Part shown: piece after piece, positions 35,219-40,436 of the stretch
Position numbering within the stretch: the first letter of the stretch is position 1
How the letters are laid out: each line of letters begins with the position of its first letter
Source of the DNA: Halobacillus sp. Marseille-Q1614
GTDB taxonomy: Bacteria; Bacillota; Bacilli; Bacillales; Halobacillaceae
Length of the DNA: 64,000 bases
Direction: 5' to 3'
Assembly: GCF_902809865.1 (NCBI RefSeq)
Contig: NZ_CADDWH010000001.1
Location: 310,001-374,000, forward strand
Notes under the pieces: model-generated
What the model was told of the DNA's origin: nothing
Database searches by the model: none
The model's input: the letters and a program-made list of their open reading frames with translations, nothing else
Position numbers and translations under genes: made by a program

Positions 35219-35246
35219 AAAAGCCTCCCACTTGGAGGCTTTTTGT
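35219..35246 (-). terminator. Terminator after the YflT-type gene
   Basis: AAAAAGCCTCC and GGAGGCTTTTT pair perfectly across CACTT, giving a terminator that works on the minus strand. Confidence 0.88.
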
Positions 35247-35593
35247 TATGGTAATAGACTTTCGACATGCCCATGGTTTGTGACCATGAGAAGTACTTTT
35301 CCTTCATCTAAATCTTCTTCATATTCGGCCGCTTCTTCTTCTGAATAACCCATTGCCTCAATCTTTGTGCGTAGCTCGTCACCTTTCTTACTGAATATGT
35401 TGCTGATAAAGTTCTTTGTATCCTGTTCAGAGAATCCGATTGTATTTGCGTTTACGTTTTCTGCAATTCGATTTGTGCGGTCGTCATCGTGCGCTAGTAC
35501 ATAAATGTCTTTACTGTTTACCCCTTCATTCTGAAGCTTTTTGACAGCTTCCATGAGGTTTTCATCATTGGTATATTCGCGTGTAAAAGGCAT
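35246..35593 (-). CDS. yflT: YflT-type general stress protein (GSP17M family)
   Basis: The ATG at 35591-35593, eight bases after AAGGAG, gives 115 residues. The sequence has the YflT domain pattern DENLMEAVKKLQNEGVNSKD then IYVLAHDDDRTNRIAE, and ends LDEGKVLLMVTNHG. B. subtilis homologues belong to the sigma-B general stress regulon; their biochemical role is unknown. A near-perfect sigma-B promoter lies 43 bases upstream of the start, just after the end of the peptide gene at 35682, so the gene can be expressed alone or by read-through. Confidence 0.87.
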   Translation of the reverse strand: MPFTREYTNDENLMEAVKKLQNEGVNSKDIYVLAHDDDRTNRIAENVNANTIGFSEQDTKNFISNIFSKKGDELRTKIEAMGYSEEEAAEYEEDLDEGKVLLMVTNHGHVESLLP

Positions 35594-35635
35594 TCCTTTC
35601 ACTCCTTAGTATTAATTGACTTAACACTCCTTTAT

Positions 35636-35661
35636 ATACCCTGCATGTTTGAATAAAAAAC
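35636..35661 (-). promoter_or_regulatory. Sigma-B-type promoter of the YflT gene
   Basis: On the minus strand GTTTTT is followed after 14 bases by GGGTAT. This closely matches the B. subtilis sigma-B consensus GTTTAA-N12-15-GGGTAT, and YflT-family genes are known sigma-B targets. Confidence 0.8.
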
Positions 35662-35681
35662 TTTTCCTTTTCCAATAACTC

Positions 35682-35882
35682 TCAGCCCATCCCTGGGTCA
35701 CCCGGGTCATCTGCTAACCTTTTAACATCACCCATTTCCGGATCGCCGGGATCCGCGGCAAGTTCAATTAATCCCATCCCTGGGTCGCCGGGGTCGTCCA
35801 ATGTTTGAATAGATGAAGAACTACTAATTGCAGAGGCCATCATTATCAATGTGATCAGGATACTGGCTAACAGCTTTTTCAT
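35682..35882 (-). CDS. Secreted pheromone-like propeptide with three DPGDPxMG repeats
   Basis: The 66-residue product starts 6 bases after AGGAGG. Residues 1-19 form a signal peptide (MKKLLASILITLIMMASA). The rest carries DDPGDPGMG at 29-37, ADPGDPEMG at 43-51 and DDPGDPGMG at 58-66, the last ending exactly at the stop codon. The spacers LIELA and DVKRLA separate the units. A short exported precursor with C-terminal signal units, encoded 23 bases downstream of a TPR receptor, is the arrangement of AimR-AimP and Rap-Phr pairs. The mature signal is inferred to be DPGDPGMG or a C-terminal part of it. No independent terminator follows, so transcripts may run into the YflT gene. Confidence 0.8.
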   Translation of the reverse strand: MKKLLASILITLIMMASAISSSSSIQTLDDPGDPGMGLIELAADPGDPEMGDVKRLADDPGDPGMG

Positions 35883-35905
35883 ATAAAGCCTCCTAGAAAA
35901 AATTT

Positions 35906-36928
35906 TTATATGAGATGTTTCAAGTAATATTTAGGCAATAGGGCAAAGAAATGATCACCATTTTCCTGAATGAAACGCTGATGAGACTGGTGAAGCATTT
36001 TTTTGTCTTTCAGGGCGAGACCTAAATAGCTTTCCTGAAACGGCGTCATCCTCTTTAGAGATGTCAAAATTTGAATCGCTTTGTCTCTTTTATTACTAGC
36101 TAATGCTAAGTGAGCTGTTTCTATAGGGTCTGGGGTGGAAATATTATCGGTTTGCTGGTGGAAGGCGCAGATAAAAGGGATGGTGCGATTCCTTAGAGTG
36201 GCGGCATCTTTTAATCTTCCATAGCCATTCGCTTTTTTTAGAGCTATTTGTGCATTAATCATGGATAATTTAAATCCTTCAAATAGGTAACACAGCGACA
36301 AGTTATGATACATGGTCACTTGAGTTTCAGGAGAGAGGGTACAGTTAATAACTTTGTAAGCATATTTCTTCGCTAAAATCGTATTATTGGTTTTCCAGTA
36401 ATGCTGGAATGCGAGCTCGTTAAACCTTAATTTCATATAATAGTAGAATAAAGGTTCTTTTATTTCACTTATTTGACTAAGACATTGGTCCATGAACTTA
36501 TCCAATCCTGTAAATGTTTTCAAGTCATAGTAAAGATAAACGAGAGTGAATAAGTGCAAGCACTTAATGGAAGGGGGGCTGAAGCTGAGTTGTTCTAAAT
36601 GGTTTAACTCTTTGGGTGTGAATCGTCTTTGCTTTCTAATTAGCAGTATTTTGTAGAGGAATGTTGTTTCTGAGGAGAATTGATCGGATGAGGTAAAGGT
36701 TTTTAAATCATCGAAAAAACCATTCATATACATGAATTCCAGATAGGCGAGTTCTTCATCCATGTTTACTGGAGGATTTGTCAGGCAGTACTGTTTTGTC
36801 ATCTGAGTAGCTTTTTCTTTCGACGTAGTTTTAAGAAACTGGTGGTAAATTTCGTATAAAAATGAAAAGTTCTTCATTTGAATGCCGGCAAATTGTTCTG
36901 GTTCTATAATTTTATGTTCTTGACACAT
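35906..36928 (-). CDS. AimR-like TPR peptide receptor lacking the DNA-binding segment
   Basis: The 340-residue protein is helical throughout, with TPR-like repeats. The C-terminal portion DPIETAHLALASNKRDKAIQ, then TPFQESYLGLALKD and DHFFALLPKYYLKHLI, resembles the C-terminal part of the arbitrium receptor AimR of phage SPbeta (pattern QEQAHCFINFNENSKAKEVL ... FLIRLPLLELQKM). AimR has about 386 residues with an N-terminal helix-turn-helix; this protein begins near the first TPR and seems to lack that domain. It therefore may act on a protein partner, as Rap proteins do. The peptide precursor gene follows at once. A paralogue lies upstream at 37064. Confidence 0.75.
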   Translation of the reverse strand: MCQEHKIIEPEQFAGIQMKNFSFLYEIYHQFLKTTSKEKATQMTKQYCLTNPPVNMDEELAYLEFMYMNGFFDDLKTFTSSDQFSSETTFLYKILLIRKQRRFTPKELNHLEQLSFSPPSIKCLHLFTLVYLYYDLKTFTGLDKFMDQCLSQISEIKEPLFYYYMKLRFNELAFQHYWKTNNTILAKKYAYKVINCTLSPETQVTMYHNLSLCYLFEGFKLSMINAQIALKKANGYGRLKDAATLRNRTIPFICAFHQQTDNISTPDPIETAHLALASNKRDKAIQILTSLKRMTPFQESYLGLALKDKKMLHQSHQRFIQENGDHFFALLPKYYLKHLI

Positions 36929-37035
36929 ATCTTCAACAACCTTTCATTTTAACTGATTCAATTATATCTAAGTACTTTTAGAATAGTAAATAGTTTGTAA
37001 GGGAAAAAATTGAATAAATAAAAAAATAATCCAAA

Positions 37036-37066
37036 AATTAAAACGTCAAAATGAATTGACGTTTTA
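37036..37066 (-). terminator. Terminator after the orphan AimR-like gene
   Basis: AAAACGTCAA and TTGACGTTTT form a 10-bp stem overlapping the stop codon, with a T-rich minus-strand tail. It separates the two receptor genes into different transcripts. Confidence 0.8.
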
Positions 37067-38095
37067 ATAAGCAGACTTTTTATATTTTTTAAGATAAATT
37101 AATGGGACTTTTGCAAAAAAATGATCCCCTAGATCGTATTTAAAACGCCGGTGTGCGTTTAGGAGTAATTCGTGATCATGCGAGGCTGCACCTAAATAGG
37201 TTTCCTGAAAAGGAGTAGGGTTCTTAATTTCACTTAGAATTCCATAGGCAGTTTTGTAATCATGATTAGCCAAGGCCAGGTGGGCGGTTTCAGTCGGATC
37301 TGTTGTCTTTACGTTTGCTGTTATTCCATGAAACGCACTGATGAAGGGGATAGTGTGGTTTTCGATCGATGAAATAGATGTTGTTAAAGAATGTTCTTTT
37401 GCAATATTTAAAGCCCTTTCTGCATGACTTATTGAGGTGCTGTACCCTTCATATAAATTGCATAAGGCGAGATGATGATACATCTTACTTAATTGCCGGC
37501 CTGGAAGGACTTTATTAACGTATTTATAAGCATATTTTTGAGCAAGGAGCTTATTATCGGTTTTCCAATAATGCTGAAAAGCAATTTCATCGAAACGAAG
37601 CTTCATAAAATAATAAAAGAGCGGTTCATTTACATTTCTTAGAGCAGCTTCACACAATTCGATATACTTATCAAAACCTGTGTACTGTTTTATATCATAG
37701 TAGCCGTAAACAATAGTAAACATATGGAGACAGTGCAGCGAAGGGTGTTCAAAGGACATGCACTCAAGCATCTCTACATCTTCTTTTGTCAACAGGCGAT
37801 GTTTGCGCTTGATGAGCAGGTTGTACAGCCAGGCAGCTTTATTCTCAATAAAACTGAAGTTAAGCAGCTTATTCACTTCTTCAACGTAATCATTAGTATA
37901 TAAAAACTCCAGATAAGCTAGCTGATCTTCAAAACTCTTAGGTTCATGCTTCATGCAATAATCGCGTGTGAGTGTAGAAGCCTTCATTTTTGAATGCTTT
38001 TTTAAAGACTGGTAGTAATATGAATAAATGTTTGATACAAAATTTATTTGAATTTTGGTAATGGGACTTGGCTCAATTACGCTATGGCACCCCAT
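37064..38095 (-). CDS. Second AimR-like TPR receptor (orphan paralogue)
   Basis: The 343-residue protein is collinear with the receptor at 35906. Shared stretches include AFQHYWKT(N/D)N, KYAYK, TIPFI(S/C)AFH, DP(T/I)ETAHLALA, TPFQE(T/S)YLG and GDHFFA. It also lacks an obvious N-terminal helix-turn-helix. No peptide gene follows: the 135 bases to the next receptor hold only a terminator and promoter. It may respond to the neighbour's peptide, to a distant one, or have lost its signal. The start at 38095 has no strong ribosome binding site nearby, so the exact start is uncertain. Confidence 0.72.
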   Translation of the reverse strand: MGCHSVIEPSPITKIQINFVSNIYSYYYQSLKKHSKMKASTLTRDYCMKHEPKSFEDQLAYLEFLYTNDYVEEVNKLLNFSFIENKAAWLYNLLIKRKHRLLTKEDVEMLECMSFEHPSLHCLHMFTIVYGYYDIKQYTGFDKYIELCEAALRNVNEPLFYYFMKLRFDEIAFQHYWKTDNKLLAQKYAYKYVNKVLPGRQLSKMYHHLALCNLYEGYSTSISHAERALNIAKEHSLTTSISSIENHTIPFISAFHGITANVKTTDPTETAHLALANHDYKTAYGILSEIKNPTPFQETYLGAASHDHELLLNAHRRFKYDLGDHFFAKVPLIYLKKYKKSAY

Positions 38096-38405: not shown

Positions 38406-40436
38406 ATGAGTAAAAATAAAAAAGATGAACAGTTAGAAGAGTTTCGTGCGGATGACCGTGCGAAGGAAATGACGACGAATCATGGAGTTAAGGTTTCCGA
38501 AGATGAATTTTCACTAAAAGCTGGCGAACGTGGTCCTACCTTAATGGAGGATTTTCATTTCCGCGAAAAAATGACCCATTTTGACCATGAACGTATTCCT
38601 GAACGAATTGTGCATGCCCGCGGTTATGCGGCTCATGGGGAGTTCCAGGTTTATGAATCTATGGAAGAATATACCAAAGCAGGTTTTTTACAAGATCCAG
38701 ATAAGAAGACGCCGGTGTTTGTTCGATTTTCTACCGTTGCAGGATCTAAAGGTTCAGCTGAAACGGTAAGAGACGCCCGGGGATTTGCAACTAAGTTTTA
38801 TACGGATGAAGGAAACTACGATTTAGTAGGGAACAATATTCCGGTATTCTTTATTCAGGATGCTATGAAATTCCCGGACTTGGTACATGCTGTAAAGCCT
38901 GAGCCGCACAATGAAATGCCTCAGGCAGCTTCTGCTCATGATACTTTCTGGGATTTCGTTGCCAATAACCAGGAATCAGCTCACATGGTCATGTGGACGA
39001 TGTCCGACCGCGCGATTCCTAGAAGCTTCCGTATGATGGAAGGATTTGGTGTGCATACGTTCCGGTTTGTAAATGACAAAGGGGAAGCACACTTTGTGAA
39101 ATTCCACTGGAAACCAGTCCTCGGTACACACTCGCTTGTTTGGGATGAAGCTCAAAAAGTCAACGGGAAAGACCCTGACTTTCACCGTGGAGACCTTTAT
39201 GAATCTATTGAAGCAGGAGACTATCCTGAATATGAATTAGGAGTACAGCTTGTAAAAGCAGAGGACGAGTTTAACTTTGACTTCGACCTTCTTGATCCGA
39301 CCAAGGTATGGCCGGAAGAGGATATTCCAGTTAAGATTATTGGAAAATTAACACTTAACCGAAACGTCGATAATGTTTTTGCTGAAACGGAACAAGTAGC
39401 CTTTCACCCAGGTAATGTAGTTCCTGGAATTGACTTCACCAATGATCCTCTTCTTCAGGGACGTCTATTTTCATATACAGACACCCAGCTCATTCGTTTA
39501 GGAGGACCAAACTTCCATGAGCTGCCGATTAACCGTCCTGTATGCCCGTTTCATAACAATCAGCGTGATGGCTACGGCCGGATGACAATTAATAAAGGGC
39601 CGGTCAGCTATCATAAAAACTCTCTTGCGAAAAATACTCCTTCCCCAGTAGATGAAGAGAAAGGCGGTTATGTACACTATCAGGAAAAGGTAGACGGACA
39701 TAAAGTAAGAGCAAGAAGCGAGAGCTTTAAGGATCACTTCTCCCAAGCCACTTTATTCTGGAACAGTATGAGTGATCCGGAGAAAGATCATATTAAAGAA
39801 GCCTTCAGCTTTGAGCTTGGAAAAGTGGAAAGTGCGTCTGTTAAGCAGCAGGTCGTGGACATGTTCACAAATGTAAGCCTGGAGCTCGCTCAGGAAGTTG
39901 CCGAGAATATCGGAGTTCGCGTTCCTGAAACAGGCGGATCTGATGTAACGAAATCTTCTCCTGCCTTAAGCCAGGAAAATACGAAGAAAAAACCTGATAC
40001 CCGAAAGGTTGCTGTTCTTTTAACGGATGGCTTTAACGGATCAGAGGTACACTCAATAATTGAAGGTCTGGAAGATAAAGGCGTTCAGCCGGAGATTGTG
40101 AGTGATAAATTAGGCAGAGTTAAAGGAGCCGATGGAACAGAACTGGAAGCGAACCATACGTATTTAACCGGCGAATCTGTTCTATTTGATGCTATTTACG
40201 CTGCAGGCAGCAATAATCCAAGTGATAAAGTTAGAAAAGATGCCCTGTACTTTATTCAGGAAGCCTTCTCTCACTTCAAGCCAATTGGAGCTAGCCACGA
40301 CGGGAAAAAGTGGATAGAAGAAGTTGAGATAGCTGGAGCTCCCGGAGTTGTAATAGGGAACGACGCTAAAGACTTCGTAGAGGAATTTGTAGAAGCCATT
40401 GCTGAGCACCGTCATTGGGACAGGTCCTTAGAATAA
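38406..40436 (+). CDS. katE: Large-subunit haem catalase
   Basis: The 676-residue protein is a clade 2 catalase. The catalytic His lies in PERIVHARGYAAHGEFQ, the Asn in DLVGNNIPVFF, and the haem-ligand Tyr in RLFSYTDTQLIRLG. The C-terminal 150 residues after a linker (RKVAVLLTDGFNGSEVHSII) form the flavodoxin/GATase-like domain typical of HPII and B. subtilis KatE. It decomposes hydrogen peroxide in the cytoplasm. The start follows AGGAGGAGTAGATGG. With the manganese catalase decayed at 15609, this is the only intact catalase in the window. Confidence 0.95.
   Translation: MSKNKKDEQLEEFRADDRAKEMTTNHGVKVSEDEFSLKAGERGPTLMEDFHFREKMTHFDHERIPERIVHARGYAAHGEFQVYESMEEYTKAGFLQDPDKKTPVFVRFSTVAGSKGSAETVRDARGFATKFYTDEGNYDLVGNNIPVFFIQDAMKFPDLVHAVKPEPHNEMPQAASAHDTFWDFVANNQESAHMVMWTMSDRAIPRSFRMMEGFGVHTFRFVNDKGEAHFVKFHWKPVLGTHSLVWDEAQKVNGKDPDFHRGDLYESIEAGDYPEYELGVQLVKAEDEFNFDFDLLDPTKVWPEEDIPVKIIGKLTLNRNVDNVFAETEQVAFHPGNVVPGIDFTNDPLLQGRLFSYTDTQLIRLGGPNFHELPINRPVCPFHNNQRDGYGRMTINKGPVSYHKNSLAKNTPSPVDEEKGGYVHYQEKVDGHKVRARSESFKDHFSQATLFWNSMSDPEKDHIKEAFSFELGKVESASVKQQVVDMFTNVSLELAQEVAENIGVRVPETGGSDVTKSSPALSQENTKKKPDTRKVAVLLTDGFNGSEVHSIIEGLEDKGVQPEIVSDKLGRVKGADGTELEANHTYLTGESVLFDAIYAAGSNNPSDKVRKDALYFIQEAFSHFKPIGASHDGKKWIEEVEIAGAPGVVIGNDAKDFVEEFVEAIAEHRHWDRSLE

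Follow-up and report, generated by a model that had tools for sequence, protein, structure and literature searches.

The window, by which we mean the whole 64,000-nucleotide stretch of the Halobacillus sp. Marseille-Q1614 contig that was analysed, carries on its minus strand two receptor genes of the AimR family and one gene for a short secreted peptide precursor (Table 1). In the direction of transcription the order is R2, a terminator-like hairpin, R1, a 23-nt gap and the precursor. Re-reading of the sequence confirmed the coordinates, lengths, strand and R1–precursor gap that had been predicted for the pair. The original prediction of a receptor paired with a precursor stands as described, but it overlooked the adjacent R2, a second receptor that lacks the helix-turn-helix (HTH). 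Nor did it cover the spread of such receptors through the GTDB family, the receptors that lack a precursor, or the broader HTH-less clade found at sporulation loci. No precursor belonging to R2 was found among the ORFs near it. R1 and the precursor probably share a transcript, and AGGAGG, read directly from the sequence, lies ahead of the precursor start codon. The region held seven promoter-like consensus sites against 12.2 in shuffles, and three terminator-like hairpins against 2.3 expected.

Table 1. Features of the receptor–precursor region, in order of transcription
Feature	Position in window	Strand	Basis
R2, HTH-less AimR-family paralogue, 343 aa	37064..38095	-	Pfam, PHROGs, NCBIfam; 45% identity to R1
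Terminator-like hairpin directly past R2, between R2 and the R1–precursor unit	37037..37068	-	Pattern match
Promoter-like TTTACT-18-TATAAT 5' of R1, candidate start of an R1–precursor operon	36961..36990	-	Consensus match only
R1, AimR-family TPR receptor without N-terminal HTH, 340 aa	35906..36928	-	Pfam, PHROGs, NCBIfam, AlphaFold2 model
Secreted precursor with three DPGDP[G/E]MG units, 66 aa	35682..35882	-	Sequence, relatives, codon test

Receptor family, fold and N-terminus

The profile search that the original prediction had called for placed R1 in the AimR family: R1 matched PF22871 with E 3.3e-45 and 155 bits (cut-off 26.7) and NF038310 with 123.9 bits (cut-off 70), while R2 scored 129.9 and 91.9 bits against the same cut-offs. 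Across the window's genome, R1 and R2 were the only proteins to match PF22871 at E 1e-8. The AlphaFold2 model of R1, built with 28 sequences, was confident and all-helical (mean pLDDT 92.1, pTM 0.88). Among solved structures, a profile search with A2 gave no match at E 10, and a single-sequence search matched the Katmira AimR at 1.6e-06. Neither R1 nor R2 matched the Pfam family RapH_N, the three-helix bundle of Rap, at E 1. The Rap/NprR N-terminal domain is also matched in this genome, so the role of the receptor need not be that of Rap.

Peptide-contacting residues were compared by alignment to the Katmira AimR, with residue roles as given in passages of PMC6458997 and PMC9232636, where E300 holds the peptide N-terminus and R228 anchors its C-terminal carboxylate. 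E300 corresponds to E270 in R1 and is Glu in 36/36 family representatives and in 39/45 other HTH-less rows; the 40 HTH-bearing rows have 23 Glu and 9 Asp at this position. F276 is likewise kept in 36/36 family representatives. R228 is replaced by E201 in R1 (R/K in 27/36 family representatives), N202 by Q and N206 by K, and these three anchors are also not kept in most HTH-bearing rows.

The predicted absence of an N-terminal HTH from R1 was upheld by its short N-terminus, the open frame, the model and the alignment. An HTH concealed in frame upstream of R1 was ruled out, because the open frame of 345 codons leaves only about five in-frame codons ahead of the start. In the model, short helices at residues 4-7 and 12-17 (pLDDT 70-77) precede the first long helix. 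The stretch ahead of the LEF/LEY motif measures about 62 residues in the window's family, 52-72 in most HTH-less sequences and 78-128 in HTH-bearing rows, some long values being upstream starts that were set by hand. HTH calls followed a length rule, with fewer than 79 residues before the LEF motif scored as minus; five long-start rows were called minus and L181 and L189 (78 residues) plus by hand, and L177, with 70 residues, is borderline. The start of the NCBIfam profile alignment was dropped as an HTH test after L117, which has a long N-terminus, also aligned only from position 33. L124, scored as HTH-bearing, aligns with phi3T AimR over residues 2-391. None of the 36 family representatives was called HTH-bearing; three of these calls were made by hand.

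In a tree of 76 rows, obtained from 121 by excluding twelve long- or deep-branch loci and thinning the remainder at 62% identity, a branch supported 100/100 has 53 of the 57 HTH-less rows together on one side. A quick tree of 121 rows placed 75 of 81 HTH-less rows on one side (SH-aLRT 100). Each tree requires four changes of HTH state, counted as changes and not as losses; our reading of the pattern is that the HTH was lost in the HTH-less clade.

At six DNA-backbone positions, basic residues account for 9% in the window's family, 22% in other HTH-less rows and 33% in HTH-bearing rows, and acidic residues for 23% in the family versus 7% in HTH-bearing rows. R82 is still basic in 36/45 HTH-less rows outside the family, so the loss of DNA contacts is clear only in the window's family. 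Since both the HTH and most of the basic residues with which AimR holds DNA are absent, the receptor most likely binds a protein, and the non-DNA target originally suggested would be expected. HTH-less receptors could also hetero-dimerise with an HTH-bearing AimR, as dominant negatives or co-receptors: AimR is described as dimeric in a passage of PMC6458997, and R1 adjoins R2. We hold this to be very improbable, because R1 and R2 alone match PF22871 in the genome at E 1e-8 and every family representative was scored HTH-less, so that no HTH-bearing partner of the AimR family was found.

Precursors and receptors in the window's GTDB family

The precursor contains DPGDPGMG (residues 30-37), DPGDPEMG (44-51) and DPGDPGMG (59-66), and the last unit, as predicted, is the exact C-terminus and ends at the stop codon. 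When the last 42 residues were shuffled 20,000 times, three units never arose and two arose once. The leader (MKK, a hydrophobic stretch and ASA) is Sec-type as judged from its composition and the usual leader cleavage rule. NF033802 (AimP) matched the leader weakly (E 0.03, below cut-off), and the C-terminus is GMG, not the RGA-type hexapeptide of AimP.

AimR-family matches were present in 11/11 genomes of the genus and 39/44 genomes of the GTDB family, covering 4 of its 6 genera. Named genomes were scanned by a method limited to loci that carry either of two short patterns; all 25 loci obtained came from Halobacillus or Thalassobacillus. The 39 family genomes hold 52 receptors, not counting a broken receptor gene in G013 that is present as two fragments, and 35 of these (in 34 of the 39 genomes) have a downstream precursor with the motif DP[GI]xxx[MIVYL][GW]. 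Lack of conservation of the precursor ORF, named beforehand as grounds for refutation, was not observed: the ORF is kept as a family, though it is absent behind 17 of the 52 receptors. When the search behind an overlapping set of 17 precursor-less receptors was relaxed to any leader-like ORF, it gave nothing convincing. Between the receptor and the peptide of H. massiliensis, similarity to R1 was weak, at best E 0.011 and that in the reverse direction, and no R1 remnant is claimed there.

Copy number per precursor was four in one case, three in four, two in nine and one in 21. The motif forms the protein end in 21 of the 35 precursors and not in the other 14, such as the Thalassobacillus precursor ending ...DPGDGGMGSWK; in G007, leader and repeats lie in different frames. 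The 14 multi-copy precursors yielded 216 codon pairs, of which 101 were identical, 111 synonymous and 4 nonsynonymous, pairs from one precursor not being independent. Copies of one precursor have 7.85 of 8 residues in common (27 pairs) versus 6.26 between copies of different precursors (1458 pairs). Silent change is plentiful and nonsynonymous pairs are few, so the peptides are under strong selection, and the codon pattern shows that the extra copies of the putative pheromone are kept intact by it.

This pattern bears on whether pheromone repeats serve dose or diversification. If the three copies were different messages, DPGDPEMG would be a second signal, and the window's middle copy does differ at one residue; the high identity within precursors, the 4/216 nonsynonymous pairs and the occurrence of the E variant in the window's genome alone, among 35 precursors, make this quite improbable. 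That last count also speaks against the original proposal that DPGDPEMG might be released as a variant. The three copies themselves are real, but repetition as such had already been published for AimR, NprR, PlcR and Rap propeptides, as passages of PMC9765709 and PMC11343458 record.

Mapping on the receptor tree revealed that motif letters cluster: position 5 required 8 changes (shuffled mean 14.7, lowest of 200 shuffles 8) and position 7 required 7 (shuffled mean 16.7, lowest 12). G030 has two receptors, with DPGDPGIG and DPGTGGIG, that are placed in different receptor clades. Presence or absence of the precursor needed 7 changes, indicating that this state switched repeatedly. By the evidence of these sequences the pair is a real peptide–receptor system, in which R1 would bind the peptide and act on a protein target.

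Gene neighbourhoods and phage records

The nine window neighbours scanned with PHROGs and Pfam comprise a PTS operon, two zinc-type dehydrogenases, a YflT-domain protein, a long catalase and a FUSC protein. No phage structural, integrase or lysis gene was found among them, and their PHROGs matches were to a dehydrogenase family or to families of unknown function. The claim that no phage genes surround the pair is borne out for these nine neighbours, and recurring chromosomal neighbourhoods in relatives agree with the chromosomal system that had been proposed. The settings of 36 family loci, at which neighbours outside the window were named only in part, included a DinB-type gene (13), a YdjM-type gene (12), a BCCT transporter (12) and a catalase (10, all in the window's genus). 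A neighbouring gene as the protein target of the receptor was rejected, there being no neighbour family common to all 36 loci.

Every one of the 11 genomes of the genus has a catalase gene no more than about 2.5 kb from a receptor; 12 of the 33 catalase genes of the genus are so placed, and these come in three sizes (about 490, 560 and 680 aa). The window's copy is at 38406-40436, and others are at L016-L018, L020, L021, L025, L091, L095 and L096. The proximity is inherited synteny and not a set of independent events, yet because the settings are not alike, oxidative stress offers a lead. The YflT-domain gene (35246-35602) follows the precursor, and its upstream stretch (35603-35680) has GTTTTT and then GGGTAT, which by eye resembles a sigma-B promoter.

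Searches of phage and plasmid records with R1 and of viral contigs with A2 gave no match, and carriage of R1 by phages or plasmids was rejected on this basis. Nucleotide searches with two HTH-bearing homologues also gave no match; in the positive control, a protein search of phage records, an HTH-bearing AimR found 23. L115, an HTH-less relative from another family, had two weak phage-record matches (best E 2e-8, 20.8% identity).

A decaying prophage AimR that has shed its HTH, accompanied by a leftover AimP, would account for the AimR sequence family, the weak NF033802 match to the leader and the phage-record matches of L115. Against such a remnant of arbitrium stand the occurrence of receptors in 39/44 family genomes with recurring neighbourhoods, the nine neighbours without phage genes, the mostly synonymous differences between copies, the 100/100 support for the HTH-less clade, and the absence of R1 from phage and plasmid records and of A2 from viral contigs when the control AimR finds 23. 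This reading is contradicted in the main, and we consider it extremely improbable.

The host might alternatively keep a decoy or listening post, with the DPG peptide acting on phage AimR and precursor-less receptors sensing phage peptides. An 'eavesdropper' idea for chromosomal AimR is raised in a passage of PMC9765709, DPG motifs are described as widespread in AimR peptides in one of PMC12700828, and about a third of the receptors (17/52) lack a precursor. However, no HTH-bearing AimR was found in the window's GTDB family, no phage carrier was found, and the peptide variants track chromosomal receptors; we judge this alternative unlikely. The explanation that we regard as probable is a peptide-signalling module of RRNPPA type that lies on the chromosome and is inherited vertically.

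HTH-less relatives, proposed mechanism and known systems

PF22871 matches were present in 80 of 397 genomes drawn from the order. Repeats occur in other precursors as well: DPVEPPIK x4 (L136), TPSTSPRIQ x6 (L125), YDVDFRVR x3 (L112) and DPGEPIGT x2 (L177). The HTH-less AimR relatives at L112, L125-L127 and L131 fall outside the main clade, and some of them have repeat precursors. Eight further loci (L142, L145, L146, L147, L154, L165, L166, L168) hold one to four HTH-less receptors in the whole or part of a speE-speB / DUF1934-argS setting, whose families were named for L165.

At L172 the gene order is spoIID, spoIIQ, receptor, spoIIID and mbl (Pfam and NCBIfam, the last named MreB/Mbl). With these four L172 proteins as queries, and fetched stretches of differing length, the 53 HTH-less loci outside the family (30 genomes) had spoIIQ at 21, spoIIID at 20, mbl at 17 and spoIID at 13; none of the four was found at 37 HTH-bearing loci or at 48 loci of the window's family. 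The HTH-less loci of this spoII type belong to two GTDB families. The spoIIQ loci are L118, L119, L132, L135-L137, L139, L140, L153, L155, L158, L162, L164, L167, L171-L173, L179, L182, L187 and L188. No receptor gene intervenes between spoIIQ and spoIIID in the genome of the window. Judging from these neighbourhoods, a role in sporulation is likely for the HTH-less clade; for the Halobacillus species of the window such a link may be drawn by analogy. At L167, L171, L172 and L173, all spoIIQ loci, leaderless ORFs of 15-37 aa ending in a conserved DPDYGDIG or DPDFGDIG lie directly behind the receptor, and no ribosome-binding match was found for the short ORF of L172. These ORFs are possible intracellular ligands.

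In the mechanism that we propose for the window, the precursor would leave the cell via Sec, and extracellular proteases would release from it as many as three copies of an octapeptide-like pheromone (DPGDPGMG, with putative mature ends). After re-import the pheromone would occupy the TPR groove of R1; the precursor-less R2 perhaps binds the same pheromone. The action of the receptor is most likely Rap-like, through contact with a protein, and the peptide would release or alter that contact. HTH-less relatives often lie between spoIIQ and spoIIID, which makes a sporulation-type step the first target to test.

More tentatively, and as a possibility somewhat short of probable, a large chromosomal AimR clade may have lost its HTH independently of Rap and become Rap-like protein regulators in spore formers, with the gene fixed between spoIIQ and spoIIID in two GTDB families and the cognate peptide, DPDYGDIG, seemingly leaderless in one genus; arbitrium and this clade would then represent two outcomes from a single bacterial receptor family. 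If this holds, the leaderless DPDYGDIG would be a cell-to-cell signal turned into an internal developmental signal, and the system of the window the member that kept export and raised its signal copy number. AimR relatives are placed in sporulation gene neighbourhoods, and a second HTH-less branch, in a family known best from phages, would offer a test of the switch from a DNA to a protein target.

A passage of PMC9765709, a 2022 study, names Rap as the sole RRNPPA receptor without HTH; by its sequences, the HTH-less AimR clade is an exception to that rule. HTH loss is named for Rap and subfamily 17 in a passage of PMC12700828, and 21 new subfamilies are described in one of PMC10075063. The 'eavesdroppers' (PMC9765709) and 'subfamily 21' of Alkalihalobacilli (PMC12700828) are likewise AimR-like genes outside prophages, and the cited passages report no loss of the AimR HTH; the former gives a propeptide with 11% of non-prophage chromosomal AimR. 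The open-licence literature yielded no paper joining Halobacillus with AimR or AimR with SpoIIID.

The window's system resembles AimR-AimP of SPbeta/phi3T in the family of its TPR part, the receptor-then-precursor order, the Sec-type leader and the Glu that holds the peptide N-terminus. It differs in lacking the HTH, in being chromosomal with no phage genes among the scanned neighbours, and in carrying DPGDPGMG in three copies in place of AimP xxxRGA. With Rap-Phr it has in common a receptor without HTH and an exported precursor able to hold several pheromones, multi-copy Phr precursors and their processing being described for two phage Rap systems in a passage of PMC11343458; Rap-Phr belongs to another subfamily, its receptors act on proteins, and R1 and R2 lack RapH_N. 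Paenibacillus AloR-AloP is also a bacterial system, but all Alo receptors have an HTH according to a passage of PMC7425212, unlike R1 and R2. Subfamily 08 is bacterial too, with DPG-motif peptides (PMC12700828, in the passage cited). Repeated pheromones and DPG motifs were already known from such systems; what appears to be new is a set of AimR relatives turned Rap-like.
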